Part shown: one piece after another, positions 11,337-38,261 of the stretch | Layout: the number at the start of each line of letters is the position of its first letter | Position numbering within the stretch: the first letter of the stretch is position 1 | Assembly (NCBI GenBank): GCA_027306655.1 | Contig: DAHUZL010000067.1 | Span: forward strand, 1-38,648 | Source of the DNA: Candidatus Dormiibacterota bacterium | Lineage (GTDB): Bacteria > Chloroflexota > Dormibacteria > Aeolococcales > Bog-877 | DNA: 38,648 nt | Direction: 5' to 3' | Notes under the pieces: model-generated | Databases searched by the model: none | The model's input: the letters and a program-made list of their open reading frames with translations, nothing else | What the model was told of the DNA's origin: nothing | Translations under genes and position numbers: made by a program

Positions 11337-11726
11337 TCAGCCGGGGCCGCCCCCCGCCTCCCCGGGCGGGTCCGGGACGCCCCCGCCCGGGCGCGGCCCC
11401 GGCCGGGGCCCGAGCGCGCGCAGTCGCTCGACGAGGATCTCGGTCGTGGTGCGGCGCAGCCCGTCCTGGGCGTCCCACTCCCGGGTCTGGAGGCGGCCCT
11501 CCAGGTAGACCTGGCGGCCGCTGTCGAGGATGTCGGCGCACACCTCCGCCAGCCGGCCGAAGGCGACCGCTGAGTGGTACTGCACGTCGTCCATGCGGTG
11601 ACCCTGGTCGTCGCGCCAGCTGGAGTTGGTGGCGACGCGCAGACGGGTGATGGCGAGACCGCGCGTCGAGCGACTCAGCTCCGGCGCGCGGCAGAGGTTG
11701 CCGACCAGGATCACCCGGTTGATCAC
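11337..11726 (-). CDS. ssb: Single-stranded DNA-binding protein without acidic tip
   Basis: A 129-residue SSB. The OB fold is clear: INRVILVGNLCRAPELS, ITRLRVATNSSW, YHSAVAFGRLAEVC, GRQVYLEGRLQTREW and a closing TTEILVERLRAL. After about residue 105 there is only a short proline/glycine-rich tail ending PPGEAGGGPG, so the acidic DDDIPF-like tip that recruits replication and repair partners in housekeeping SSBs is missing. The GTG start overlaps the stop of the VirB6-like gene (GTGA, 11723-11726), so it is translated as part of that operon. This suggests an SSB dedicated to the secretion-like machine rather than the replicative one. Confidence 0.9.
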   Translation of the reverse strand: MINRVILVGNLCRAPELSRSTRGLAITRLRVATNSSWRDDQGHRMDDVQYHSAVAFGRLAEVCADILDSGRQVYLEGRLQTREWDAQDGLRRTTTEILVERLRALGPRPGPRPGGGVPDPPGEAGGGPG

Positions 11727-12667
11727 GCCATCGGCTCCAACCGCGCCAGCACCAGGCGACGGGCCGAGCGTTCCAGGCGGCGCCCCGCCGCGGCGGCGCG
11801 CCGCTCCCAGTGCTGGGCGCCGCCGAGGGCGCCGGGGACGCGCAGCATGATGTACAGGGCGGCGAGCGAGTAGAGGATCGAGACCAGGCTCTGGCCGTCG
11901 GCGATCGTGAGCGTCACCGCCACCCGCAGCACCAGCAGCTGCACGAACTGCATGAACAGGGTGGCGAGGAAGAGACGACCCCACTGACGGCTGTACCCGC
12001 GTGTCTCCGGGAGCACGTGCAGGAGCGCCGCCAGCGGCGCGACCACGCAGAGGACGGTGAGCAGGGTGGCCCGCACCACGTAGGCGAGGGCGAGCAGCAC
12101 CAGCGCGATCACCATCAGCGCGGTGAGGACGAGAAGGAAGAGGTTCTGGGAGGCGGTCTGGAGGGCCGGCCCGGCGAGCGGGTCCGCCCAGGGGAGGCTC
12201 GCCGGCCCCACCGCCCCCTGGCCGACGGCGAGGCTGCAGAGAGCGTTCTCCAGGTCGACCGCCATCTGGATCAGCGGCAGGGACCAGCGCATCAGGACCA
12301 CCGCCACCAGGAGCCGCGGCAGCACCACCTGAAGGGTGTGCTGGACGTCGAGGCGGTGGTCGACGACCGTGCGCAGGCAGCTGTAGAGGAAGACCGCGGC
12401 GAGGAGGGCGGTCCCGGCCTCCGCCGTCAGCGAGTTCAGCGCCACGATGGCGGTGTTCGACGTGAACGGGGCGGCCTGGCCCGGGCGGGCGACGTCGTAG
12501 GTGCCGAAGAGGTACGTCGTGAGCACGCCGTCGATCGTGTGCCGGGCCGAGGCCACGAACTGGAGCAGTCCCCCCTCGACCAGGCGGACCACGAACGCCA
12601 CCGGGTCGAAGCTGAACAGCGGGGCCGCCGCCCGGGCGACCGGGGCGCCGAGGCCGGCCGGCGTCAC
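11723..12667 (-). CDS. VirB6/TrbL-like polytopic membrane protein
   Basis: A 314-residue protein starting at GTG 12667 (MTPAGLGAPVARAAAPLF), where the codon overlaps the stop of the small gene upstream. An N-terminal region ending near residue 60 is followed by about six hydrophobic helices, among them TALLAAVFLYSCLRTVV, FLLVLTALMVIALVLLALAY and LLHVLPETRG, then FLATLFMQFVQLLVLRVAV. This helix arrangement resembles VirB6/TrbL, the inner-membrane pore component of type IV secretion. Assignment is by topology and by its place between a VirB2-like gene and ssb, since this family has poor sequence motifs. The final 40 residues are basic. Confidence 0.72.
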   Translation of the reverse strand: MTPAGLGAPVARAAAPLFSFDPVAFVVRLVEGGLLQFVASARHTIDGVLTTYLFGTYDVARPGQAAPFTSNTAIVALNSLTAEAGTALLAAVFLYSCLRTVVDHRLDVQHTLQVVLPRLLVAVVLMRWSLPLIQMAVDLENALCSLAVGQGAVGPASLPWADPLAGPALQTASQNLFLLVLTALMVIALVLLALAYVVRATLLTVLCVVAPLAALLHVLPETRGYSRQWGRLFLATLFMQFVQLLVLRVAVTLTIADGQSLVSILYSLAALYIMLRVPGALGGAQHWERRAAAAGRRLERSARRLVLARLEPMA

Positions 12668-12903
12668 GACAGGCCGTGGGGGACCAGGCCGAGCAGGATG
12701 TGGCTGAAGACGCCGGCCAGCTCGACCCCGATCGTCCCCACCGCGATCCGCCCCAGCCACCGCTGGGCCTCCGACGCGCTGTGGGGATGGACCGCGACCA
12801 CCCGCCAGATGAAGGCGCAGACGAACGCCAGCGTGCCGAGGCTCCCGATGACCCCCTGGCCCAGGGAGATCCAGCTGTTGAGCAGCGCCGTCAGGGTGGG
12901 CAT
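12664..12903 (-). CDS. VirB2/TrbC-like small two-helix membrane protein
   Basis: A 79-residue protein with two membrane helices (about residues 17-38, GVIGSLGTLAFVCAFIWRVV, and 50-72, RIAVGTIGVELAGVFSHILL) and a short polar loop between them. Size, topology and position immediately before a VirB6-like gene match VirB2/TrbC pilin-type subunits, although no cleavable signal peptide is obvious and sequence similarity cannot be checked here. It is the first gene of a three-gene operon with the VirB6-like gene and ssb, all joined by GTGA overlaps. A palindrome lies 20 bases upstream of the ATG. Confidence 0.65.
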   Translation of the reverse strand: MPTLTALLNSWISLGQGVIGSLGTLAFVCAFIWRVVAVHPHSASEAQRWLGRIAVGTIGVELAGVFSHILLGLVPHGLS

Positions 12904-12976: not shown

Positions 12977-13444
12977 TCAGCAGGCGGTGTCCCACCCTCC
13001 GTCGCCCACCGAGACGACCACGGTCACCGGGCCGTCGCCCCGCGCCTCCACCACCATGTGGGCGCCGAACGCGCCCTGGGCGACCGGGTCGATGCCGAGC
13101 GTCTCCAGGGCGAGCCCGAACGTGGCGCAGAGCGGCTGGGCCAGCTCCGGGGCGGCCGCCGCCGTGAAGCTCGGCCGGTGGCCGCGCCGGCAATCGGCGA
13201 AGAGGGTGAACTGGCTCACCACCAACGCCCCCCCGCCGCGGTCGAGGAGGGAGCGGTCCATCCGGCCCTCCGCGCCGGGGAAGACCCGCAGGCGAGCCAG
13301 CCGCTCGGCGAGACGGCGCGCGGTCGCCACGGTGTCGGACGGCGCCACTCCCAGGAAGATGAGGAGCCCCGGGCCGATGGCGCCGACGATCTCGCCCGAG
13401 ACCAGGACCCGGGCGTCCGACACGCGCTGGACGACGGCACGCAC
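12977..13444 (-). CDS. dtd: D-aminoacyl-tRNA deacylase
   Basis: A 155-residue DTD protein that removes D-amino acids mischarged onto tRNA. The family starts [13 protein letters not shown] and continues with [13 protein letters not shown], the catalytic segment [19 protein letters not shown], and a C-terminal Gly-Pro motif in DGPVTVVVS. In many DTDs this motif reads NSGPV; here it is GDGPV, so the asparagine-serine is replaced but the key Gly-Pro is kept. It starts 13 bases after the end of the unknown gene at 13458 and is probably transcribed with it from the leaderless-type promoter at 14055-14066. Length and motifs are normal. Confidence 0.95.
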
Positions 13445-14767: not shown

Positions 14768-16759
14768 TCAGTCCCCGCGGCCGCTGCCCCGGTGGCGGTG
14801 GTGCGCCTCCAGGATCATGTGGTGGAGCGGCGGCGCCTGCACCACGACCGGGGTGCGCTCGTCGGCGCTGACCAGCAGGAACTCCCCCCGGCGGCAGTCC
14901 TCGATCGCCTCCCGCTGGGCCGCGGTGAGCGACAGCGCCCGCTGGAGGCGGTCGGCGTCGTGGCCGTGGTGGCTGCCGAGAAGAAGGGTCGCCGCGTTGC
15001 CGGTGAGGACCTCCCCCGCGGCCGACCCCAGCAGGTCGCCGACGTTCTGGGTCACGAAGACGAGCGATCCCTGGTACTTGCGGATCCGCCGGGCGAGCTG
15101 GGCCAGCAGCCGTCGCAGCGGCTCGTGCTCCAGGAGCAGCCCGGCCTCGTCGAGGATGACATGGCGCGGACGGGGGTGGCCCCGCACCAGGCCCCACAGC
15201 CAGCCGGCGATCAGGACCGTGGCCGACGGGAGCCACTCGGTGGGGCAGTCGCGAAGTCCGATCCCGGTGAGCGGTCCGGCGGCGGTCAGGGTGGACGGCC
15301 GGCTGAAGAGGAGGCCTGCGCGCCCCACCGTCCACCGCTCGAGCAGGGTCGGCACCCGGTCCTCGGGCCAGCGGTCCCCGAGGGTGCGCCGCAGGTCGGC
15401 GAGCGTCGCCGGTCCGTCGCGGGCGGTGGCGAGGACCGCTCGCGCGGCGCCCTCGACCCGGGCCCGCTCCAGGTCGGTCAGCCCTCCGCACATCGCGCCC
15501 ACCACCTCGGCGGCCACGATCACCGACTCCTCGGGCCCGGCCAGCTCGAAGAGGTTGAGCGCGGCGGTGTCCGGACCCCCGATCTCGACGTACGCGCCGC
15601 CCGCGGCACGGCACAGCTCCCGGTGCTCGCCCTCCGGGTCGACCACCACGCTCTCGATCCCGCGGCAGAGATCCTCCAGCGCCAGCAGGCCGGCCAGGTA
15701 CGACTTGCCCCCGCCGGAGGCGGCCACGATGCCGCAGTTGGCGTTGGCGCGGCGCCGGGTGTCGAAGAGGTCGAGCTGGCAGAGCGCGCCGGTTCGGCGA
15801 TGGCGCCCGAGCAGCGCTCCGGCCCCGGGCGGCCGCCCCGCATCGACCCACGGCCAGCAGGTGCTGAGGGCGTCGGTGTCGACCAGCCGCAGCGGCCCCG
15901 CCGGCGGCTCGCCCCGCGCGAGGGTGTCGCGGCGCGCTCGGCGCTGGTCGAAGGTCGCCGGGCGCGCGTCGCCGAGGAGCCCCCGCACCCGCCCGACGGC
16001 GGTGTCGACGAGGCGCGCCACCGCCGCCGCGGAGTCCGCCGTGACGGTCAGGGTGAGGGCGCACTCGAACGCGCGCACCTCGTCGCCGGCGAGGCGGCGG
16101 CGGAGGGTCCGGATCGCGCTCGCGCCGGCGTCCAGGCGGGGATCTCCCTCGTCACCCTGCTCGGCCTCGACCAGGCGGGCGGTGTGGACGACCCGCTCGG
16201 CCCGCTCCAGCTGGCGCTGGGCGCTGGCCTGGGGCCGGGGCCGGACGTAGAGGCTCAAATCCTGATCGCCGGCGAGGCCCACGAGCTCCCAGAGCCATCC
16301 CGGCTCCACTGGGCGGCCCGGGAGACGGTGAAGTCGGAGGGAGGCGAACCATGTCGACGCCACCCGGAGGTGGCGCGCCGACTCCACAGCGTCGCCGGCG
16401 TCGGACGCGAGCCGGTCCGGCTCACACGGCTCCACCCCCATCCCCAGTCGCCCCAACCCGTCCGCGGCGGCGGCGGCCGCCACCGCCGTCTCCCGGTCGG
16501 GAACCGCGACCACCAGGTGGACGTGGCGATCGAAGGCCGGCCGCTCCCGCAGTGACGCGGCGAGGTGCCGCCGGCGGTCGTGATCCAGGCGCGCCGGCAG
16601 CGAGCCGCCCGAATCACCGCCCGCCGCCGGAGGGAGGAGCCGGCGCACCGTCACCAGCAGCTGAACCGGCACGGTGAGCGCATCCAGCCACGCGGCGAAC
16701 GCCACCCGACGGCGCTCGCGGTCGGCGGGCTCCAGCTCGACCGCGTCGGGGGCGGTCAC
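14768..16759 (-). CDS. VirB4-type secretion ATPase, paralogue 1
   Basis: A 663-residue VirB4/TraC-like ATPase. The N-terminal half (AWLDALTVPVQLLVTVRR near residue 23) is the docking domain. The C-terminal half is a RecA-like motor with Walker A AASGGGKSY (about 346-354), VVVDPEGEH, NLFEL, a Walker B-like HVILDEAGLLL (about 530-540) and the glutamine-bearing LVFVTQNVGDLL. It should power a membrane-bound type IV secretion-like complex. The GTG at 16759 lies 43 bases after the PrgI-MinD fusion gene. It is a paralogue of the 799-residue ATPase encoded at 35503-37902, with which it shares WLD-LTVPV and NAN before Walker A, and it is about 135 residues shorter. Confidence 0.9.
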   Translation of the reverse strand: MTAPDAVELEPADRERRRVAFAAWLDALTVPVQLLVTVRRLLPPAAGGDSGGSLPARLDHDRRRHLAASLRERPAFDRHVHLVVAVPDRETAVAAAAAADGLGRLGMGVEPCEPDRLASDAGDAVESARHLRVASTWFASLRLHRLPGRPVEPGWLWELVGLAGDQDLSLYVRPRPQASAQRQLERAERVVHTARLVEAEQGDEGDPRLDAGASAIRTLRRRLAGDEVRAFECALTLTVTADSAAAVARLVDTAVGRVRGLLGDARPATFDQRRARRDTLARGEPPAGPLRLVDTDALSTCWPWVDAGRPPGAGALLGRHRRTGALCQLDLFDTRRRANANCGIVAASGGGKSYLAGLLALEDLCRGIESVVVDPEGEHRELCRAAGGAYVEIGGPDTAALNLFELAGPEESVIVAAEVVGAMCGGLTDLERARVEGAARAVLATARDGPATLADLRRTLGDRWPEDRVPTLLERWTVGRAGLLFSRPSTLTAAGPLTGIGLRDCPTEWLPSATVLIAGWLWGLVRGHPRPRHVILDEAGLLLEHEPLRRLLAQLARRIRKYQGSLVFVTQNVGDLLGSAAGEVLTGNAATLLLGSHHGHDADRLQRALSLTAAQREAIEDCRRGEFLLVSADERTPVVVQAPPLHHMILEAHHRHRGSGRGD

Positions 16760-16802: not shown

Positions 16803-17993
16803 TCAGCTGGCGGCGGCGACGCGGGACTCCGGGCTCCCGATCGCGACCACCCCCGGCATCACCGCCGCCGCCAGCGCGGCGAGCCCCCCCGGGGCGGGCC
16901 CCCGGCCGTCGAGCACGGCCGGCACATGGCTCCGCTCAGCCCACTCGAAGCGGGGGTCGGATGCCACCCGGGCGGCGACGCCCGGCTCCAGGGGCCGGCT
17001 CTCGTCCTCGCCCGCGCTCCGATTGTGGACGACGTGGAGGCGGGCCCCCGGCGCCGCCCGGCGCACGGCGTCCAGGGTTCGGACCGCGTCGTGGACCGCG
17101 CTCGGGGCGGGGGTGAGCACCACGACGACGTCGTGGGCCGCCATCAGCAGAGGGCGGGTGACGGGGGTGAGACCAGGCCCGAGGTCGAGCACCGCCGCCT
17201 GCACGCCGGTACGGTCGAGGGCGTGGACCACCGCCAGGATCCGGTCGGGGACGCGGTCGTCCGGATCGGCCGGGGCGGCGGGTGGCGCCAGGAGCGCCTC
17301 CAGCCGCGACCCGGGGTGGCGCACGAGGGCGCGCCGCACCCGCTCCGGCGACAGCGGCCCCGGCCCGAGGAGGTCGGCCAGGGACGGGCCGCCGAGTCCC
17401 AGGCGGTGCGCCACCGCGCCGGCGTCGAGGTCGAGGTCCACCAGGGCCACCCGCAGCGGGACCGCGCGCGCTGTCCCCGCGCGCACCCGTCCGTGGTGGG
17501 CGAGGAGGGTGGCGGTCTCGGTGGCGAGCGTCGTCCGTCCGACACCCCCCTTCAGGCTGAAGAAGGCGATCCGCCGGGTGCCGCCGAGGAAGGGGGGCGG
17601 ATCCTGGCCCGCCGTCCCCACGCCCGGTGCGGGCGCCGATCCCCGCGCCAGGACCTGGAGGCGGACCGGATCCGGAGCGAGGCCCCGCGCCGGCGGACGC
17701 GTCGGGGCCGGCGGCACCGCCCGCCGGGCCGCCCATCGCCGCACGGCAAAGCCGGCCACCAGCGGGACCCACTCGAGAGCCGGGCGGCCGCCGAGGTGAC
17801 CCCATGCCATCCCCGCTGCCCCTGCCATGACGCCCACCGTGAGGGCGGCCCGGAGGGCCGCCGGTCCCGGCGCGCTCCAGCAGGCCATCGCCAGGACCAC
17901 CCCGCCCGCCGCGACCAGGAGCCGCGGTGCCGGGAGGCCGAAGGCCACCCGATCCTCCGGGTCCACCCCCTCCACGATCCGGATCCCTGCCAC
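16803..17993 (-). CDS. PrgI-like membrane domain fused to a MinD/ParA-type ATPase
   Basis: A 396-residue protein with two parts. Residues 1-90 (VDPEDRVAFGLPAPRLLV, two hydrophobic helices around 22-40 and 47-66, then GGRPALEWVPLVAGFAVRR) look like a PrgI-family protein of Gram-positive type IV secretion systems. After a proline-rich linker, residues 141-396 form a SIMIBI P-loop domain: FFSLKGGVGRTTLATETATLL with deviant Walker A KGGVGRTT (148-155), VALVDLDLDAGAVAHRLGL, and further LDLGPGLTPVTRPLL. In the Walker A motif arginine replaces the lysine that precedes the threonines, as in some TadZ/CpaE-like proteins. The GTG start has a strong AGGAGGGAG site but is enclosed in an RNA hairpin. The gene precedes VirB4 paralogue 1. 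Confidence 0.82.
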   Translation of the reverse strand: MAGIRIVEGVDPEDRVAFGLPAPRLLVAAGGVVLAMACWSAPGPAALRAALTVGVMAGAAGMAWGHLGGRPALEWVPLVAGFAVRRWAARRAVPPAPTRPPARGLAPDPVRLQVLARGSAPAPGVGTAGQDPPPFLGGTRRIAFFSLKGGVGRTTLATETATLLAHHGRVRAGTARAVPLRVALVDLDLDAGAVAHRLGLGGPSLADLLGPGPLSPERVRRALVRHPGSRLEALLAPPAAPADPDDRVPDRILAVVHALDRTGVQAAVLDLGPGLTPVTRPLLMAAHDVVVVLTPAPSAVHDAVRTLDAVRRAAPGARLHVVHNRSAGEDESRPLEPGVAARVASDPRFEWAERSHVPAVLDGRGPAPGGLAALAAAVMPGVVAIGSPESRVAAAS

Positions 17994-18041
17994 TCTCTCC
18001 CTCCTGCCCCGTCCGACCGAGAGAGTCCCCTCGGCGAGGGG
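17991..18041 (-). promoter_or_regulatory. Two hairpins in the leader of the PrgI-MinD gene
   Basis: On the mRNA strand CCCCTC-GCC-GAGGGG (18041-18027) is followed directly by ACTCTCTC (18026-18019), a 19-base loop containing the Shine-Dalgarno sequence, and GAGAGAGT (17999-17992). The last GT of that repeat belongs to the GTG start codon (17993-17991). The second, perfect 8-bp stem would therefore occlude the start. The first could act as an attenuator or terminator after folB, though it lacks a U tract. Confidence 0.5.
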
Positions 18042-18071: not shown

Positions 18072-18446
18072 TCAGGACGGAGGCGGCCCCGGGCGCACCC
18101 GGCTGATCGCCACGGCGAACCCCTGGGTCTGTCCGGGCAGCCGGGGCTCCTTGGCGACCCGCAGGTGGACCCGCTCCACCCCCTCCAGCCGCAGCACGCG
18201 TCGGGCGATGGCGGCGGCGAGCGCCTCCAGGAGGGCGAAACGCTCGGTCTCCACCACGGCCCGGACGGCCTCGTGGACGTGCCGGTAGTCGACGGTGTCC
18301 GTGACCCGGTCGGTCTGCGACGCGCGCGCCACGGACGCCTCGACCTCGACGTCGACCGTGATCGCTCCTCCCTGCACCTGCTCCTCCGCGCTGGCGCCGT
18401 GATGGCCGAAGAAGCGGAGGCCGGGGAGGAGGAGGCGGTCGGGCAT
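18072..18446 (-). CDS. folB: Dihydroneopterin aldolase
   Basis: A 124-residue FolB that converts 7,8-dihydroneopterin to 6-hydroxymethyl-dihydropterin plus glycolaldehyde in folate synthesis. Motifs are GLRFFGHHGASAEEQ, TVDVEVEASVARA, DTVDYRHVHEAV, ALLEALAAAIARRVL and the lysine in LRVAKEPRLPG. An upstream in-frame GTG at 18491 would add 15 residues (MPEGAGTPRTTVSAP). The ATG at 18446 is chosen because the conserved domain starts there and GGTGAG precedes it by seven bases. It is divergent from the XRE gene, and a TAGGGT hexamer (18509-18504) inside the XRE promoter spacer may be its -10. No other folate gene is in the window. Confidence 0.9.
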   Translation of the reverse strand: MPDRLLLPGLRFFGHHGASAEEQVQGGAITVDVEVEASVARASQTDRVTDTVDYRHVHEAVRAVVETERFALLEALAAAIARRVLRLEGVERVHLRVAKEPRLPGQTQGFAVAISRVRPGPPPS

Positions 18447-18497
18447 CGGGGCGCTCACCGTGGTCCGGGGCGTGCCGGCTCCCTCGGGCACATGGTC

Positions 18498-18532: not shown

Positions 18533-18808
18533 GTGAACGTCGTGGTGCGCGCCGTCGGCCTTCGCGAGGCGCGCCGGCAGCACCAGCTGACGCAGCGGGA
18601 GCTGGCGCGACGCCTGGGGGTGACCCAGAACTACATCCCCGCGCTCGAGGCGGGGACGCGCAACCCTGGCCCGCGCCTGCGCTCCGCCATGCTGGCGATG
18701 TTCGGCTGCGAGTTCGAGGACCTCTTCGACGTCGTCATGGTCGACCCGTCGACCCACGTCGAGCGCCGCCTCCGACCGGTCGGGGAGGCCGTCCGCCGCA
18801 CCAGCTGA
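18533..18808 (+). CDS. XRE-family helix-turn-helix regulator
   Basis: A 91-residue protein with a Cro/CI-type helix-turn-helix near the N terminus: LREARRQHQLTQRELARRLG, then VTQNYIPALEAGTRNPGPRL (about residues 10-49). The remaining part (LAMFGCEFEDLFDVVMVDP) completes the five-helix fold and gives a short C-terminal tail. It is a DNA-binding repressor or activator with unknown targets. The GTG at 18533 is placed at the expected transcription start of a TTGACA-N17-TAGCGT promoter, so the mRNA is probably leaderless. It is divergent from folB and close to the leader of the PrgI-MinD and VirB4 genes, making it a candidate local regulator. That is inference. Confidence 0.88.
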   Translation: MNVVVRAVGLREARRQHQLTQRELARRLGVTQNYIPALEAGTRNPGPRLRSAMLAMFGCEFEDLFDVVMVDPSTHVERRLRPVGEAVRRTS

Positions 18809-26220: not shown

Positions 26221-27685
26221 CGGAGGTCCCCGGTCGAGCGGGGGGGTTGCGCCAGCAGTCGAGGATCAGGCCGGCCACCAGCGCGGCCCGTGCCGGGAGC
26301 TCCGCGGGCAGGATCCACTCCCCCTGCGCGTGGGCGTTGCCGCCGACGATCCCGAGCCCGTCGAGGGTGGGCACGCCGAGGGCGCCCGTGAGGTTGCCAT
26401 CGCTGCCTCCCCCGACCTCGGCCCCCTCCAGAGGCGGCCAGCCGAGGGCCGCGGCCACCTGCGCGGCGCGGGCGAAGAGATGGGCGGTCGCGGTCCGCTC
26501 CAGGGGTGGACGGTTGATCCCGCCGGTCACCTCCAGGCGGGCCTCGGGATGGAGCGGACGCAGTCCGCGCAGGGCGCTCGACACCCGCTCCCCCTCCCCG
26601 GCGGTGCGGACCCGGACGTCGATCTCGGCGGTGGCGAGGGCCGGAACCACATTGGACCGGGTGCCGCCGCGCACCACTCCCACCGTCACCGTGGTGCCGG
26701 CGCCGGGGTCGGCCAGCGCCGCCACCCGGGGGACCTGAGCGGCCAGCTCGACGACCGCGTTGACCCCCCGCTCCGGCTCGATCCCGGCGTGGGCGGCCCG
26801 CCCGCTCACGGTGAGGCGGAACTCCCCCACCGCCTTGCGGCCCACCTTCACGGCGCGGCCCACGGGCGGCTCCAGCACCAGGACGGCGTCGTGGTCGCGG
26901 GCGGCGGCCTCGATCAGGTCGCGCGACCCCTGGCTCCCCACCTCCTCGTCCCCGGTGAGGAGCACGGTCGCCGGCCCGTCCGCTCCCGACCGGGCCCGCA
27001 GCGCGGCGAGCGCCGCGCAGGCGACCACGACCCCGCCCTTCATGTCGAAGACGCCCGGGCCGAGGAGCCGGTCCCCGTCGCGGCCGAGCATCGGCGCGAA
27101 GCTGCCCCGGTCCCACACCGTGTCGACGTGGCAGAGGAGGAGGACCCCGCGGTCCCCGGAGCCGGCCCGGAGCCGGCGCGCGGGGGCGGTGACCCCGGGC
27201 CCGGGCGCGTCTGTGAGCCCGGCCAGCTCCACGAACGCGGTCGCGGCCCGGTCCGCGCACCGCGCGACCGCCTCGGGGTCGTCGCTGGGAGACTCCAGTC
27301 GAACCAGCTCCTCCAACGTGCGCAGCCAGTCCGGCTGGCGCGCCGCCAGCCAGGCCTGGATCCCCTGGAGCTCGCCGGCCGCACCCGCACCCGGCTCGGT
27401 CACGGCCGGACCGGGCCGCCCGGGTGCACCGGCGCGGCCGCTCCGTCCCGTCTCCCCCTGTCCCTCCCCCCCATCGTCCCCGATCGTACCAGGGGTCCCG
27501 GCGACCGCCCCCTCGGCCGGTGCCGTCACTGGGGGCGGCGTCGGGTCGAACCGCGGAGCCGGCACCCCGAACAGGCGTCCGACCAGGAGCACCATCCCCT
27601 GCGCCTCCTCGCGGAAGCGGCTGCGGCGCCAGCCGGGGTGGCGGAGGAGGCGGGCGAACGGGCCCGGCCGTCCCGGCTCAGGCAC
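26213..27685 (-). CDS. M20-family metallopeptidase (carboxypeptidase G2-like)
   Basis: The M20 domain occupies the last 396 residues: LLLCHVDTVWDRGSF (metal HxD), GPGVFDMKGG, LLTGDEEVGSQGSRD (catalytic and metal glutamates), the dimerisation segment GRAAHAGIEPERGVNAV, then GGGSDGNLTGALGVPT and a late histidine in GNAHAQGEW. These enzymes remove a C-terminal residue or an N-acyl group; with the coupled racemase an N-acylamino-acid desuccinylase role is plausible. The frame begins at GTG 27685, overlapping the transglycosylase stop. A GTG at 27403 would give the standard family length and lies about 77 bases downstream of the start point expected from a TACGAT hexamer (27492-27487). The extra 94 residues (EEAQGMVLLVGRLFGVP plus a low-complexity linker) have good codon usage and may be real. 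Confidence 0.88.
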   Translation of the reverse strand: MPEPGRPGPFARLLRHPGWRRSRFREEAQGMVLLVGRLFGVPAPRFDPTPPPVTAPAEGAVAGTPGTIGDDGGEGQGETGRSGRAGAPGRPGPAVTEPGAGAAGELQGIQAWLAARQPDWLRTLEELVRLESPSDDPEAVARCADRAATAFVELAGLTDAPGPGVTAPARRLRAGSGDRGVLLLCHVDTVWDRGSFAPMLGRDGDRLLGPGVFDMKGGVVVACAALAALRARSGADGPATVLLTGDEEVGSQGSRDLIEAAARDHDAVLVLEPPVGRAVKVGRKAVGEFRLTVSGRAAHAGIEPERGVNAVVELAAQVPRVAALADPGAGTTVTVGVVRGGTRSNVVPALATAEIDVRVRTAGEGERVSSALRGLRPLHPEARLEVTGGINRPPLERTATAHLFARAAQVAAALGWPPLEGAEVGGGSDGNLTGALGVPTLDGLGIVGGNAHAQGEWILPAELPARAALVAGLILDCWRNPPARPGTSGG

Positions 27686-28409
27686 AGGCCCACTGGCCGG
27701 ACTCGCCCGCCGCGAACATCGCGGCGGCGACGTCGGCCTGCTGGACGGCCGACCAGATGTCGGTTCCCCCGTGGCTGTAGAAGGTGCTGGGGAGGAACTG
27801 GAAGACCCCCGACGCTCCCGAGGAGCCGTTGACCGCGAGGGGGTTCAGGCCCGATTCGCAGGTGGCCACGCCGAGGAGCCAGCTGTAGGAGACCCCGTAG
27901 CGTCGGGCGGCGGCGAAGATGTCCGCCGCAACCGTCCCGGGGGGAGGAACGGCCACGATCTGCGCGCGCGGGCTGACGGCCGCGCTCGGCTGGGCGGTGG
28001 CGGTGGCGCGCACCGCCGGGGTCGCCGTCGCGGTGGCGGGCGGGGCGGCCGTCGGGGTGGCGGTCGGACGGGGGGCGGGGCTCGCGGCCGCCCTCCGGCT
28101 CGAACGGACCCGCCCGCGGTGTCCGGGCACCGCCGGCGACGCCGTAGGGCGGGGCAGGGTCAGCTGGAAGCCCTGGCTGGGCACCAGGTTGCGCGCCGCC
28201 TCCGCCAGGCTCGAGAGGGCCGCCGGAGACGGTCCCGTGATCGCAGCCGGCACGCCCCCGACGCCGAGCACGCCGACCACCGGCGTGCCGGCGAGGGCGA
28301 ACGCCCCCCCCGCCAGCCACCGCAGTCGCCCGGCGAGCCGGCGGACCCGGCGCGTCGGCCGGCTGCGATCAGCCGGGGCCGTAGATGAACCCCAGGAGGG
28401 AATCACCAC
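27678..28409 (-). CDS. Lytic transglycosylase (SLT domain) with signal region
   Basis: A 243-residue protein. A basic stretch and one hydrophobic segment (WLAGGAFALAGTPVVGVLGVG, about residues 31-51) suggest export or membrane anchoring. A proline/threonine/alanine-rich linker (residues 85-145) leads into a compact SLT domain: ADIFAAARRYGVSYSWLLGV, ATCESGLNPLAV with the catalytic glutamate, SSGASGVFQFLPSTFYSHGG, and a closing QWACA. This family cleaves the peptidoglycan glycan strand. It starts at GTG 28409 (or 28406), inside the end of the CHAP gene (41-nt overlap), and overlaps the M20 gene at its own end. This makes it the second gene of a wall-degradation operon. Confidence 0.88.
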   Translation of the reverse strand: MVIPSWGSSTAPADRSRPTRRVRRLAGRLRWLAGGAFALAGTPVVGVLGVGGVPAAITGPSPAALSSLAEAARNLVPSQGFQLTLPRPTASPAVPGHRGRVRSSRRAAASPAPRPTATPTAAPPATATATPAVRATATAQPSAAVSPRAQIVAVPPPGTVAADIFAAARRYGVSYSWLLGVATCESGLNPLAVNGSSGASGVFQFLPSTFYSHGGTDIWSAVQQADVAAAMFAAGESGQWACA

Positions 28410-29430
28410 CGTCGGGGACCCAGCGGTAATCGACCTGGTCCCACCCGCCGAAATTCATCTCGGCGACCTCGAACTGGCCGTTGCCCACCCCCACCACGTA
28501 GGCGACGTGGCCGAGCGGGCTGATGCCGCTGGTCCCGAAGACCGCGATCGCCCCCACCGTGGGAATCTCCCCCTCCGCGAAGCCGGAGGCGGCGGCGGCC
28601 CCCCACCACTGCCAGGCATCGCCGAACCAGGGGACGTAGCGCTGGGTGGCGACGTACCAGGTGCACTCGCCGAATGCGAAGTGGTTTCCCCAGCTGCCCG
28701 GGGTCAGGGACGTGAGCGGCTGGGCCACCGGAGGGAGGATGCTGGCGAGGGCGCCGAGATCGCTGCGGGCGGCGGCCGGCGCCTGCGCGTAGGCGACATC
28801 GCGCTGGGCCGTGGCCGCCAGGAGCTCCTGGGCCTGGGTCCCGAGCTGGGTTTCGGCGCCCACCGCCCGGCGCTCGTCCACCCGCAGCACCAGCGCGGCG
28901 CGGCGGGCGATGATCTCGGCCGAGCGGATCTGGGTGACCAGGTCGCTGAGGTTGGTGGCAGTGGCGGCCGGGAGGCTGCTCCGGCTCATGAAGGCCCCGA
29001 TGCTCGGTGCGGCCAGGGCGGCCGCGACCCCGGCGGGCCCGCTGGCGTCGAGGTAGGCGGCGCGGATCGCGGTCGCCAGCGCCAGCCGGTCGGCCGAGAG
29101 CCCCTGGGTGAGGCGGCTCTCCAGCACCACGGTCGCCGCCAGGTGGTTGTCGAGGGCCTGGAGCGATGACTGGTTGGCGCCGATCGCCATCAGCAGCCGA
29201 TGGACGCGCAGCTCCGCGGCCACCGCCCCGCCCGCCCGAAGCTGGTCGAGGCGGGCGATCAGCTGGTGCTGATCGGCCACCCCACGCCCGTGCGCGAGCG
29301 CCGCCGCTCCGGCCGGGGTGCTGAGGGGATCGCGAGCTGCGCGCACCGGCAGCAGGGTGCCGATCACCAGGATCGACAGCGCCGCCGTCACCGCCAGCGG
29401 CGCACGGATCCCATGGAGCATCCCGCGCAT
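28369..29430 (-). CDS. Secreted CHAP-domain cell-wall hydrolase with coiled-coil region
   Basis: A 353-residue exported protein. An N-terminal signal or anchor helix (APLAVTAALSILVIGTLLP) is followed by a long helical, coiled-coil-like region (about residues 30-225, such as HQLIARLDQLRAGGAVAAEL). The C-terminal CHAP domain (about 235-353) has the catalytic cysteine in GECTWYVATQRYVPW, the histidine in LGHVAYVVGVG and the acidic/polar residue in EVAEMNFGG. CHAP enzymes are amidases or endopeptidases of peptidoglycan. The ATG at 29430 has a good Shine-Dalgarno GGGAGGA and a TTGACC-N18-TACGGT promoter upstream. It heads the operon with the transglycosylase, M20 and racemase genes and resembles the CHAP protein at 34139-34911. 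Confidence 0.9.
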   Translation of the reverse strand: MRGMLHGIRAPLAVTAALSILVIGTLLPVRAARDPLSTPAGAAALAHGRGVADQHQLIARLDQLRAGGAVAAELRVHRLLMAIGANQSSLQALDNHLAATVVLESRLTQGLSADRLALATAIRAAYLDASGPAGVAAALAAPSIGAFMSRSSLPAATATNLSDLVTQIRSAEIIARRAALVLRVDERRAVGAETQLGTQAQELLAATAQRDVAYAQAPAAARSDLGALASILPPVAQPLTSLTPGSWGNHFAFGECTWYVATQRYVPWFGDAWQWWGAAAASGFAEGEIPTVGAIAVFGTSGISPLGHVAYVVGVGNGQFEVAEMNFGGWDQVDYRWVPDGGDSLLGFIYGPG

Positions 29431-29465
29431 ACGTCCTCCCACATATGGCGCGTACGGACGGGGGG

Positions 29466-29495
29466 ACCGTACGGGATTGAGCCGCTCCCGGTCAA
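29466..29495 (-). promoter_or_regulatory. Promoter of the CHAP/transglycosylase/M20/racemase operon
   Basis: On the minus strand TTGACC (29495-29490), an 18-base spacer and TACGGT (29471-29466), followed by about 35 bases and a GGGAGGA ribosome-binding site before the ATG at 29430. It is one of the better -35/-10 pairs in the window. The divergent response-regulator promoter lies about 140 bases away. Confidence 0.55.
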
Positions 29496-29638
29496 GCGGT
29501 TTGGGGATCCCGTCGTCCGAGCAGCCCTGGTTGGCCCCCCCGCGATCGGCGGCGGGGAGGCGGGACGTCCCGACGTGCCTGACCGTGGTCAGCTCGGCCG
29601 AGACCGCGGTCCGGCGCCCGCTCCACCCCGGCCGCCCG

Positions 29639-29650
29639 TACCATGCCCGC
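29639..29650 (+). promoter_or_regulatory. Leaderless-type promoter of the response regulator gene
   Basis: TACCAT (29639-29644), six bases (GCCCGC) and the ATG at 29651. An out-of-frame ATG at 29643 overlaps the hexamer. No -35 consensus is present. Confidence 0.5.
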
Positions 29651-30070
29651 ATGCCCGCAGCAGGCGCGGCCGCCGGGGGGCACGCTCCGCACATCCTCTA
29701 CCTGGAGGACGAGGCCGCGATCGCCCTGCTCTACCGCCTCGCCCTGGAGGCGGCGGGGTACCGGATCACGATCGCCCCGGACGCGGCCCTGGGGCTGGCC
29801 GCGGCGGGCCGGCTCCGGCCCGACCTCGTCCTGGTCGACTACCACCTGCCCGACCGCAACGGGGTCGATGTCGTGCGCGCCCTCCGCGCCGAGCCCGCCA
29901 CCGCCCAGGTCCCGATCGTCATCCTCAGCAACGACGACGCGCCCGCCGTGGTCCGCGCGGCCAAGGCGGCGGGGGCGACCGAGGTGCTGACCAAGATCCT
30001 CTGGCGCCCGCCCCGCCTGATCGAGGCCCTGCCCGGGTGGCTCGGCGCCCCGCCCGGCGCGGGCGACTGA
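29651..30070 (+). CDS. Single-domain response regulator
   Basis: A 139-residue receiver protein without an output domain. Key residues are visible: acidic pocket E19-D20 in ILYLEDEAAIALL, phospho-acceptor D63 in LVLVDYHLPDRNG, S93 in VIVILSNDDAP and K115 in VLTKILW. Single-domain regulators act by protein-protein contact or in phosphorelays. No histidine kinase gene is near, so its partner is encoded elsewhere. The ATG at 29651 is chosen because it starts the domain and lies six bases from a TACCAT -10. It is followed 27 bases later by the DUF421 gene on the same strand and is divergent from the wall-hydrolase operon. Confidence 0.92.
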   Translation: MPAAGAAAGGHAPHILYLEDEAAIALLYRLALEAAGYRITIAPDAALGLAAAGRLRPDLVLVDYHLPDRNGVDVVRALRAEPATAQVPIVILSNDDAPAVVRAAKAAGATEVLTKILWRPPRLIEALPGWLGAPPGAGD

Positions 30071-34911: not shown

Positions 34912-35506
34912 AGCGGACGGGCCGGCCCAGGGTGGGGGACGGGTCGATCGCGTGCCCGGGCCAGTGGGAGGGCGGCACCGCACGGATCAGCGGTTCGTCC
35001 ACCTCCACCTGGTAGTGGAGATGGGGGCCGGTGGTGAGGCCGGTGGCGCCCTCCCAGCCCAGGAGCCGGCCCGGCGGGGCCCAGGCCCCGAGCCGGAGCG
35101 GGGCGATCCGCTCGAGGTGCGCGTAGAGGACGCGGGTCCCCAGCCGCTGGAGCCAGACGGTGAGGCCGAGCGGCCACAGACGGCCGAGGAACACCACCTG
35201 GCCGTCGAGGGTGGAGCGCACCGGTGTCCCTGCCGGGCAGACCAGGTCGATCCCGTCATGCACGAGGCCGGTCGCGCGGCGGTAGCGGGGGTCGTGGAAG
35301 CCGGCCGATTCGACCAGGCCCGCGCAGACCATCGGCAGCCCGTGCGGGAGCGGCCCGCCTCCGCCCCGGGCCGCCGGCGGGCGAGCACCGGGGGCCGCGT
35401 GCCAGATCGGGAGGATGAGCGAGCCCAGCCCGAGGAGGATGCAGGTGCAGAGCGTGAGGCCGGAGGGGCGCGGGCCACGGGGTGGGCCGGGGCCGGGCTC
35501 GGTCAC
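34901..35506 (-). CDS. Membrane-anchored M23-type peptidase (LytM-like)
   Basis: A 201-residue protein with an N-terminal membrane segment (GLTLCTCILLGLGSLILPIW, about residues 17-36) and a C-terminal M23 domain. The zinc-site residues are HDGIDLVCPAGTPV (H and D) and the terminal GPHLHYQVEV (HxH), with VRSTLDGQVVFLG and VLYAHLERI between them. M23 enzymes cut peptidoglycan cross-links; in secretion systems they open the wall for the channel. The GTG start overlaps the stop of VirB4 paralogue 2 (GTGA, 35503-35506), and the CHAP gene starts inside its own end. It is therefore the wall-opening component of the operon. Confidence 0.9.
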   Translation of the reverse strand: MTEPGPGPPRGPRPSGLTLCTCILLGLGSLILPIWHAAPGARPPAARGGGGPLPHGLPMVCAGLVESAGFHDPRYRRATGLVHDGIDLVCPAGTPVRSTLDGQVVFLGRLWPLGLTVWLQRLGTRVLYAHLERIAPLRLGAWAPPGRLLGWEGATGLTTGPHLHYQVEVDEPLIRAVPPSHWPGHAIDPSPTLGRPVRYAF

Positions 35507-37902
35507 ACCACGCCCCCGGTCTCGGCCGGGTGGGTGGTGATCCATCGGTGGAGCCGAGGCGAGGCCAGGCCGCGGACCGCGGCCTGGTCGGTCCCCACCA
35601 CCACCAGGCCGCACCCCGGGCCCGCGTGCTGAAGCAGGTCCGCGGCGCCGCGGGAGAGGCCGAAGGCCTCGGCGACCCGGGCGAGCGCCACCGGCTCCTG
35701 GCGGAGCAGCACCTTGGTGTGGCTGTTGCGCACGATCACGCTGCCGGAGGGGGACCCGAGCAGGTCTTCCACCACCTGGGAGATGACCAGCAGGCCGGCC
35801 CCGTACTTGCGCAGGCGCCGGCTCATCCCCTCCAGCGCCACCGCGCTGGGGCGATGGCGGAGCAGGACCTCGGCCTCGTCGACCACCAGAAGGCGGCGGG
35901 GCCCGGGGCGGCGGAGGAGCTCGCCTTGGAGGTGCCCCAGCAGCATCGAGACGACGGCGGGGAGAAGCGCGTCGCCGTAGGCGGCGAGCGACCGGAGCCC
36001 GAACGCGACGATCGGCGCATCGAGGCGCACCGTCGTCGGCTGGTCGAGCAGCGAGCCGTACGCCCCCTCGGTGAAGCGGCGCAGCCGGCCGGCGAGCCCG
36101 CGCGTGCGTCCGGCCTCGAGCCGGGCCACCAGGTCCTGGAGCCGAGGCTGGGCCGACGGGTCCGGATCCGGGTCGCGCCCGGGGAGGCCGGCTGCCGCGT
36201 AGAGGGCCAGCAGGGACGCCTCGAGCGCCGCGACCTCGCCGGGTCGGAGCTCCGGGTCTCGGTGCGGGCCCGCCGGGCGCCCCGCCAGCAGGGTGAGGAC
36301 CGGCAGGAGCCGGGCCACCGTGTCGCGCCGGGCGGCGAGGGGATCGGCCCCCGGCGGCGCATGCAGGTCGAGCGGGTTGACCCGGCTCGCCGATCCCAGC
36401 CCGACCGCGAGCACCTCGCCGCCGAGCCCGCCCACGAGGGTGCGGTATTCGTCGGCCGGGTCGATGCAGCGGACGTGCACCCCCTCCGCCGCGCACTTGG
36501 CGACCAGCAGCTTGGCCGTGTACGACTTCCCGGCCCCCGAGGTCCCCACCAGCACCGCGTTGGCGTTGGGGTGTCCCGATGCGAAGGGGTCGAGGAACAC
36601 AAGGCCGCTCTCCAGGAGGTTGGAGCCGAGCAGGACGCCGCCCGAGGTGGGCAGCCCGTTGCGAAGGAACGGGAACGCCGTCGCCAGGGCGCTGGAGGGG
36701 ACGTCGCGCACCCAGCCCAGCGGCGAGAGCCCGATCGGCTGCGTCGCGCGCCAGCCGTCCAGCTGGCGGTGGCGCAGCCAGCTCCCGTGGCAGCCGAGCT
36801 CGGCGAGCCGGGCGCCGAGGGCCGCGCAGCGCTCGCCGAGCTCGTCCAGGGTGGGGGCGAGGACGGTCGCCCCCACCTCGAGGTGGAACAGCCGCTCCTC
36901 GTCCAGGAGGACCTGCTCCTCCAGCCGGGTCGCGTCGGCGAGGACGGTCCGGGTGCCGGAGTCGGTGCGCCGGCCCTGGAGCGTGTCCACCACCTGGGTG
37001 GTCTCGAAGCCGCGGATCTTGCGGCGGAGGTGGCCGAGCACGACCGATTTGGGGAGCGGCCGGATGTGCAGCGCCACCCGCTGGGGATGGCCGAAGCCGC
37101 CGAGGAGGGGACCGAGCCATCCCATCCGGACCGTGCGCGGGTAGCCGGTGACGACCAGACTGCGGCAGAACGCCCCGTCGACGACAAGGTGATCGGCGCG
37201 GACCTGGAGCCGTGACGGCGCCAGCCATCCGGCGAAGGTGGCGGGTTCGCCCCCGCTCCGCCCCCCGTGGGTGTGCTGCAGGAGGCCGAACCAGGCCGCG
37301 TCGTCGAGCCGACCCGCACCGACCCCGACCCGGCGCAGACCGTCGAGGAGCGTGGCGCTGCGCTCCCGCAGCTCGGGACCTGCTCGGTCCCCGACGGCCG
37401 GAGCGGCGGGGCCGGCCGCCGCGCGCCCGCGGGCCGCCGCGATCGCGACCAGACGGCGCCAGGTCCCGGCCGGCCGGACCCCCGGGGCGGCGGCCGCCAG
37501 CACCACCAGGAAGCGGGCCTGGAGGAGCTGGTGTTCGCGCAGATGGGCAGCGACCACCTCGGCCTCCTCGCGGATCCACGGCCCCAGCTGGGGCGTGAGC
37601 GGGCGGGCGGCGCACTGGCGGTAGTGGGCGGCCAGGGGCGCGGGGTCGAGGGCCTCGGTGACGACGTGGAGGGAGACCGGGACGGTGAGCCCGTCGAGCC
37701 ACTGCCGGTAGGCGGAGTAGACCTCGGCCTGCTCCGCCGGACGGCGCAGCAGGAGGCTGAGCGGACGCACCTCCAGCGCCGCCCGGGCGCTGCCGTCGCG
37801 AAGACGGAGCGTGCCGTCGCTGAGATCGACCGCGTCGACCACGGTCGACGACTCCCCCCGTCGCCGGTCGCCGCCGCCGGGCCGGGAGCGCCTCAGCGGC
37901 AT
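35503..37902 (-). CDS. VirB4-type secretion ATPase, paralogue 2
   Basis: A 799-residue VirB4/TraC-like ATPase. The N-terminal domain includes LEVRPLSLLLRRPAEQAEVY and QWLDGLTVPVSLHVVTE. The motor has Walker A VGTSGAGKSYTAKLL (about residues 452-460), HVRCIDPADEY, VNPLDLH, Walker B RRLLVVDEAEVLL (about 665-677) and LLVISQVVEDLLGSPSG. This is the standard energiser of type IV secretion and conjugation, attached to the inner membrane. Its ATG overlaps the end of the PrgI-like gene by ten bases, and the next gene is coupled by GTGA, so the order PrgI, VirB4, M23, CHAP is one translation-linked unit. It is about 135 residues longer than paralogue 1 at the N-terminal side. Confidence 0.93.
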   Translation of the reverse strand: MPLRRSRPGGGDRRRGESSTVVDAVDLSDGTLRLRDGSARAALEVRPLSLLLRRPAEQAEVYSAYRQWLDGLTVPVSLHVVTEALDPAPLAAHYRQCAARPLTPQLGPWIREEAEVVAAHLREHQLLQARFLVVLAAAAPGVRPAGTWRRLVAIAAARGRAAAGPAAPAVGDRAGPELRERSATLLDGLRRVGVGAGRLDDAAWFGLLQHTHGGRSGGEPATFAGWLAPSRLQVRADHLVVDGAFCRSLVVTGYPRTVRMGWLGPLLGGFGHPQRVALHIRPLPKSVVLGHLRRKIRGFETTQVVDTLQGRRTDSGTRTVLADATRLEEQVLLDEERLFHLEVGATVLAPTLDELGERCAALGARLAELGCHGSWLRHRQLDGWRATQPIGLSPLGWVRDVPSSALATAFPFLRNGLPTSGGVLLGSNLLESGLVFLDPFASGHPNANAVLVGTSGAGKSYTAKLLVAKCAAEGVHVRCIDPADEYRTLVGGLGGEVLAVGLGSASRVNPLDLHAPPGADPLAARRDTVARLLPVLTLLAGRPAGPHRDPELRPGEVAALEASLLALYAAAGLPGRDPDPDPSAQPRLQDLVARLEAGRTRGLAGRLRRFTEGAYGSLLDQPTTVRLDAPIVAFGLRSLAAYGDALLPAVVSMLLGHLQGELLRRPGPRRLLVVDEAEVLLRHRPSAVALEGMSRRLRKYGAGLLVISQVVEDLLGSPSGSVIVRNSHTKVLLRQEPVALARVAEAFGLSRGAADLLQHAGPGCGLVVVGTDQAAVRGLASPRLHRWITTHPAETGGVV

Positions 37903-38261
37903 CCGCCCCGCCCCGCGGCGACCTCGATCCCGGCCGGGTCGATCCGCCGCCAGCCGCGCCGATCACTCGGGGCCGCGCGCGCGATCGGGTGACCCAGCTC
38001 GCGGGGCTGGCGGTGGAAGCGGGCCCAGTCTGAGACCCAGGCGGCCGCCGGGCGCCCCTCCGGCCGGGCGAACGCGGCGACCAGCCCGGCCAGGGTGGTG
38101 GGCAGGCTGAGCCCCGCCCCGGCGGCACCGGAGAGGTGCAGGCGGACCAGGAGCAGGAACGGCCCGGCGGCGGCGACGGAGCACCAGCCCAGCTGGGCCA
38201 GCGTGAGGGGGCCGAACCGGGTCGAGCTGGCCGTGATCGGCTGGGGGACCTGGGCCTCCAT
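37893..38261 (-). CDS. PrgI-like membrane protein
   Basis: A 122-residue protein. After a short polar start the sequence RFGPLTLAQLGWCSVAAAGPF begins two membrane helices (about residues 22-42 and 48-66), followed by RPEGRPAAAWVSDWARFHRQ, the PrgI-type cytoplasmic end. PrgI-family proteins accompany VirB4 ATPases in Gram-positive and monoderm secretion systems and are thought to correspond to VirB3. It overlaps the VirB4 start by ten bases. A GGGAGG sequence lies about 13 bases before the ATG. It is the counterpart of the PrgI domain that is fused to the MinD/ParA-like ATPase at 16803. Confidence 0.8.
   Translation of the reverse strand: MEAQVPQPITASSTRFGPLTLAQLGWCSVAAAGPFLLLVRLHLSGAAGAGLSLPTTLAGLVAAFARPEGRPAAAWVSDWARFHRQPRELGHPIARAAPSDRRGWRRIDPAGIEVAAGRGGCR

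Follow-up and report, generated by a model that had tools for sequence, protein, structure and literature searches.

A PrgI/VirB3-like membrane domain fused to a TadZ/CpaE-like ATPase beside virB4 in Candidatus Dormiibacterota

The sequence analysed here, called the window, covers positions 1 to 38,648 of contig DAHUZL010000067.1 (assembly GCA_027306655.1, Candidatus Dormiibacterota), from a draft genome in 233 contigs. The window is high in GC and contains many spurious open reading frames, and real genes were judged by codon-position GC. This measure favours a minus-strand series formed by FolB, a fusion of a PrgI-like domain with an ATPase, a VirB4-type ATPase, a conserved unknown protein, D-Tyr-tRNA deacylase and a TrbL-like protein. 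The features of the locus are as follows.

18072–18491, minus strand: FolB (dihydroneopterin aldolase), a housekeeping gene upstream of the fusion (PF02152, 1.5e-27)
16803–17993, minus strand: PrgI-TadZ fusion gene, 396 aa (GTG start, AGGAGG at 18000–18005, conserved as a fusion in ~40 genomes)
17721–17993, minus strand: PrgI/VirB3-like membrane domain, residues 1–91 (AlphaFold2, hhalign, Pfam)
17607–17720, minus strand: Pro/Ala-rich linker, residues 92–129 (pLDDT <50 for residues 97–129)
16854–17582, minus strand: TadZ/CpaE-like MinD-fold ATPase domain, residues 138–380 (profile, fold, tree)
17529–17552, minus strand: deviant Walker A motif KGGVGRTT, residues 148–155, with arginine for the P-loop lysine
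14768–16759, minus strand: VirB4-type ATPase, ~40 bases downstream of the fusion (PF19044, P-loop_TraG, 7.5e-10; NF045971, 4.1e-30)
12977–13444, minus strand: D-Tyr-tRNA deacylase, a housekeeping gene of the conserved downstream block (PF02580, 2.1e-46)
11723–12760, minus strand: TrbL/VirB6-like polytopic membrane protein (PF19597, 3.8e-7, above the cut-off)
27678–28409, minus strand: SLT transglycosylase, a VirB1-like candidate (PF01464, 6e-8; syntenic in the family)
28369–29694, minus strand: CHAP peptidoglycan hydrolase, a VirB1-like candidate (PF05257, 4.9e-14)

The reading frame of the fusion contains no internal stop and begins with a GTG at position 17993, six bases downstream of the AGGAGG. 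An earlier note on this DNA, which did not give the strand, had drawn the gene and its domain limits correctly to within a few residues. The TrbL/VirB6-like protein occurs in the same syntenic block in the loci L031, L035, L054–L056 and L058. A small helix-turn-helix regulator (18533–18808, plus strand; HTH_3, 1.8e-11) lies immediately ahead of folB in the opposite orientation. At the end of the window, a small unfused PrgI-like protein (37893–38261, minus strand; PF12666, 4e-5) is encoded immediately before a second VirB4-type ATPase (35503–37902, minus strand; NF045971, 1.2e-54), and an M23 peptidase domain lies just downstream (~34997–35263). Judged by these sequence matches, the three form a second T4SS-like module.

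The window comes from a fragmented genome, and this is the sole point in favour of a sequencing or assembly error that joined two genes. A merger of this kind had been named beforehand as fatal to the idea of a fusion; it is contradicted by the same uninterrupted fusion in ~40 genomes from different projects. The merged-gene artefact is therefore ruled out for practical purposes, and we give it next to no credence.

We then considered the N-terminal domain. The window protein stays below threshold against PF12666 (PrgI; 12.7 bits for a cut-off of 27, E = 0.19). The same Pfam family is matched by 14 of the 17 full-length fused relatives at E ≤ 1 (best E = 5e-6), and a stand-alone syntenic counterpart (L053) passes the cut-off at 32.4 bits. 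Furthermore, a profile of the N-terminal domain aligned collinearly with a profile of stand-alone PrgI proteins over residues 4–89 (hhalign; probability 98.5%, E = 3.7e-15). AlphaFold2, run on the window protein with 18 sequences, predicted helices at residues 22–40 and 45–64, a third helix at 72–91, a disordered linker at 97–129 and a confident ATPase fold from residue 140. This pattern is the layout given for VirB3, with two membrane segments, a C-terminal helix and a gene beside virB4 (PMC12857230), and virB4 does adjoin the fusion in the window. These data strengthen the view that the first 90 residues are a complete PrgI-like protein; a PDB fold search with this domain gave no usable match. 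A strongly basic stretch follows helix 2 (RRWAARR...), from which the positive-inside rule would place the ATPase half in the cytoplasm. Elsewhere, in genome G025, a PrgI-like N-terminus is found on a different and longer protein (L061 6179–7825, minus strand; 549 aa stop-to-stop) beside another VirB4, so that PrgI domains are also fused to other partners.

The C-terminal half matches the profiles of MinD (1hyq, E = 3.4e-20), FlhG and FleN over the full domain length. Fold comparison agrees with a MinD-type ATPase, and Soj/ParA folds are also found among the structural neighbours. The MinD/ParA-fold domain typical of TadZ/CpaE is thus seen by profile, AlphaFold2 and fold search, and the proposed SIMIBI P-loop ATPase at residues 141–396, with its KGGVGRTT motif, holds. 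The protein does not belong to the MinD equivalog family (TIGR01968; 26.5 bits for a cut-off of 212.9).

The arginine of KGGVGRTT had been singled out as a deviant feature. It is indeed present, but it is not unusual, because deviant Walker A motifs are common in TadZ/CpaE proteins, in which ATP is bound and little hydrolysed (PMC13170226, PMC8513845, PMC6668835). On sequence grounds, the arginine is thus a sign of a TadZ-type site and no new chemistry. The P-loop lysine is replaced by arginine in nearly all fused members of Dormibacteria, and the signature lysine position varies among them (K, N, R, S, A, G, E). The reverse pattern, A/VGGVGKT, is seen in the members of families f11 and f21. 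Since none of the fused proteins read retains both ATP-site lysines, slow or absent ATP hydrolysis is expected.

A match at E ≤ 0.001 was obtained in 47 of the 61 relatives searched, a count that includes PrgI-only and ATPase-only matches. Among named contigs, the fusion was seen in Candidatus Dormiibacterota and in MAGs labelled 'Chloroflexi'. Comparison of the gene neighbourhoods of relatives resolved three layouts. In layout A, which occurs in family f3 and in some members of f2 (genes assigned by Pfam), PrgI-TadZ is followed by TadA (T2SSE), TadB, TadC (T2SSF), TadE, often a PKD-type protein, RcpC/CpaB and VirB4. In layout B, the fusion is directly followed by VirB4; this is the arrangement of most of f2 and, within f1, of the window, G001 and G003. 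In layout C, observed in the remaining f1 genomes examined and in f4, PrgI alone precedes VirB4. Beyond the class, a phylum-wide search of 301 genomes recovered full-length fusions in f11 and f21, families that likewise show layout A. No full-length fusion was found in 199 genomes of Actinomycetota. A mobile or viral origin was rejected, as plasmid, phage and viral-contig collections contained no match to the fusion.

The virB4 gene follows directly in layouts B and C and closes the operon in layout A, and one of these two positions was observed in all loci with enough flanking sequence except in G293. There, in a layout-A locus, a segment bearing a serine recombinase directly follows rcpC, and the stretch read contains no virB4; a large serine recombinase gene (L095 2099–3949, plus strand) occupies the place expected for it. 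Downstream of one layout-B locus lies a class II ribonucleotide reductase gene with an intein (L044 11330–15358, plus strand; LAGLIDADG_3, Intein_splicing). In the non-Dormibacteria loci, a membrane protein is encoded ahead of the fusion, and profile comparison gave little sign that it is a VirB6 (hhalign probability 8%, TrbL E = 4.3).

In the layout-A operons of f3, part of f2 and other Chloroflexota, the fused gene fills the tadZ slot, directly before tadA. This position is a feature of the relatives; the fusion of the window adjoins no Tad genes. The classical CpaE of the same genomes (L097; G000) carries a receiver domain where the fusion has PrgI; L097 consists of a receiver domain (Response_reg, 1.9e-29) and an ATPase. 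In a maximum-likelihood tree, all 21 fused ATPases sampled, including the non-Dormibacteria ones, form one clade (support 100/98), which falls on the CpaE side with Soj/ParA/Mrp opposite. Because the branch separating the two sides is weak (75/50), the placement relies mainly on the operon position. The most fitting interpretation of the ATPase half is a pilus hub of the TadZ/CpaE type in which a VirB3-like anchor has replaced the receiver domain. Domains and gene order thus bear out the original proposal that, beside virB4, a SIMIBI ATPase is joined to a PrgI/VirB3-like anchor. The proposal of a positioning factor gains support from the tadZ slot of the relatives; the TadZ/CpaE type, the mixed Tad/T4SS locus and the decay of the ATPase (see below) formed no part of it.

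The genome of the window (G000) retains a separate classical Tad locus encoding CpaE, TadA, TadB, TadC and TadA; in it (contig C155, L136 4853–12289), two TadA-type ATPase genes flank tadB and tadC. Of 41 genomes searched, only the two with layout A contain the TadA specific to that system (~60% identical, E ~1e-160). In genomes of layouts B and C, the sole TadA matches are more distant and belong to ordinary Tad loci (~1e-77 to 1e-79 at best).

The operon of G079 continues beyond VirB4 (L143 1839–6258 with L093) with an SLT+M23 hydrolase, a HerA/coupling-protein-like ATPase and a Replic_Relax protein, and possibly represents a mobile or conjugative setting. Its TadA is best matched by TIGR03819 ('TadA family conjugal transfer-associated ATPase', 2e-70, below the cut-off). 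The hydrolase and HerA-like gene are also found in G258; the Replic_Relax protein was seen at the locus in G079 alone. An alternative reading is that the ATPase half delivers DNA to the channel in the manner of Agrobacterium VirC1, with PrgI serving only as its anchor. Besides the G079 locus and the Soj/ParA folds among the structural neighbours, weak VirC1 (PF07015) matches in 6 of 17 members (best 3.9e-5) and a coupling-protein family match in the genome (C210) are in line with substrate delivery. However, the VirC1 matches are unspecific, since the ordinary CpaE L097 has them too, and the tree sets the fused proteins apart from ParA/Soj. Moreover, the PF03432 relaxase, the family searched for, was found in none of ten genomes, plasmid and phage collections gave no match, and substrate delivery leaves the tadZ operon slot unexplained. 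We consider this explanation quite improbable.

The VirB4 tree and the housekeeping genes give an outline of the history of the locus. In this tree, the f1 genomes of layout B form the sister clade of those of layout C; f1 as a whole is paired with f2, and f3 (layout A) with f4 (layout C). FolB lies close to PrgI or to the fusion in f1, f3 and f4, which argues that the locus was inherited in place, and the stand-alone PrgI of the sister genera precedes VirB4 within the same FolB-...-DTD block. The VirB4 of the non-Dormibacteria loci is very distant from that of Dormibacteria, so that gene order is the basis for the view that the locus was inherited as a whole. The simplest history would comprise one fusion event that put a PrgI domain where the receiver domain had been. 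Several losses of the Tad genes, followed by loss of the ATPase half, would be the simplest reading of the later steps because layout A also occurs outside the class; given the very long branch to the outgroup VirB4, we infer this direction rather than read it from the tree.

Comparison of sequences indicates that the ATPase half is decaying in the lineage of the window; in sister genera it is degenerate or lost. In a genome of the same genus, EPAVGRTT replaces the KGG-x-GRTT motif, and between this genome and the window the PrgI half is 61% identical and the ATPase half 50%. In G007 (L059 1613–2491, minus strand), PrgI is followed in frame by a remnant ATPase domain with RPGVGCTA and no Pfam ATPase match left, an intermediate between the fused and stand-alone forms. 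The ATPase half is absent in G005, G006, G009 and G012, where PrgI stands alone. All these changes would fit an ATPase half that has become functionless in the family of the window, the protein being a VirB3 with a decaying tail. The window protein nevertheless keeps the Walker A glycines, D186, D270 and N324, its ATPase domain is still 46–50% identical to members of other genera, and AlphaFold2 gives a confident, intact fold. A purely vestigial fusion thus appears unlikely.

The reading that we favour, and hold to be probable, is a membrane-anchored TadZ/CpaE-type hub which ties the VirB4 channel motor to the site of Tad assembly, and which arose by a single fusion in a mixed Tad-pilus/T4SS operon. 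PrgI, the VirB3 counterpart, is predicted from models to bind VirB4 in a 1:1 ratio (PMC12857230), and the hairpin of the fusion would bind the VirB4 encoded next door in the membrane, as VirB3 does. The cytoplasmic ATPase half, on its flexible linker, would act as a TadZ-type ATP-binding platform that presumably dimerises. In Caulobacter, six CpaE dimers were fitted in situ around the CpaF hexamer at the membrane (PMC13170226); the platforms of the relatives would cluster about the pilus motor TadA in the way that CpaE encircles CpaF. Taken with the 1:1 pairing of PrgI and VirB4, this ring implies that PrgI-TadZ would carry a membrane dock for VirB4 and a cytoplasmic dock for TadA, and so would connect the VirB4 motor with the site of Tad assembly. 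In the lineage of the window, from which the TadA of the system is absent, only VirB4 docking and clustering or placement would remain: the Tad genes would have been lost, the protein would live on in a chromosomal T4SS-like complex as its VirB3 subunit, and the ATPase domain, whose decay has already begun in sister genera, would be retained as a scaffold for clustering or placement. VirB4 docking, dimerisation, positioning and the function of the machine are all deduced from sequence, models and comparison.

Tad pili and type IV secretion systems are usually taken as separate machines. A Tad positioning ATPase covalently joined to a VirB3 subunit, within operons of both systems, is direct genomic evidence of possible coupling. 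Since the fusion sits in relatives in an operon mixing the genes of both machines, it suggests that pilus and secretion channel were merged into one device in the soil bacteria of Candidatus Dormiibacterota and some Chloroflexota relatives. More tentatively, and with slightly less than even confidence, we propose a hybrid machine in which a Tad pilus base (TadA, TadB, TadC, TadE, RcpC) is combined with a T4SS inner-membrane translocase (PrgI/VirB3, VirB4, peptidoglycan hydrolase, coupling-like ATPase) through PrgI-TadZ as the coupler; if true, this would be a so far undescribed transfer system with a Tad-type pilus. The series from full hybrid to fusion with VirB4 only, degenerate ATPase and PrgI alone could be used to study how positioning modules are gained and lost by secretion machines, and the fusion makes the placement of monoderm T4SS in the cell a testable question.

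According to the earlier note, no such fusion is known as a described family, and our literature search, conducted outside subscription papers and preprints, likewise yielded no account of either a PrgI-MinD/TadZ fusion or a virB4-containing Tad operon. Among known proteins, the NF047398 ATPases (KGGVGR-motif variant AAA ATPases) share the KGGVGR motif, but the match covers only ~55 residues and membership was rejected (40.7 bits for a cut-off of 90). VirC1 and ParA-type accessory ATPases are, like the fusion, SIMIBI ATPases associated with T4SS; they differ in that ParA/Soj fall in another clade, lack the PrgI anchor and occur in a different genomic setting. The fusion resembles PrgI/VirB3 in its domain of ~90 residues with two membrane helices and a C-terminal helix, and in the adjacent virB4, but this domain is joined at its C-terminus to an ATPase, whereas the VirB3 fusions mentioned in a survey are to VirB4 and none is to a MinD-fold protein (PMC12102498). 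With TadZ/CpaE it shares the MinD-fold ATPase, the deviant Walker A motif and, in the tad operons of relatives, the gene position directly before tadA; unlike TadZ/CpaE, it has a PrgI/VirB3-like hairpin for the N-terminal receiver domain present in CpaE and E. rectale TadZ, and VirB4 in the operon, and in the window its neighbours include no Tad genes.
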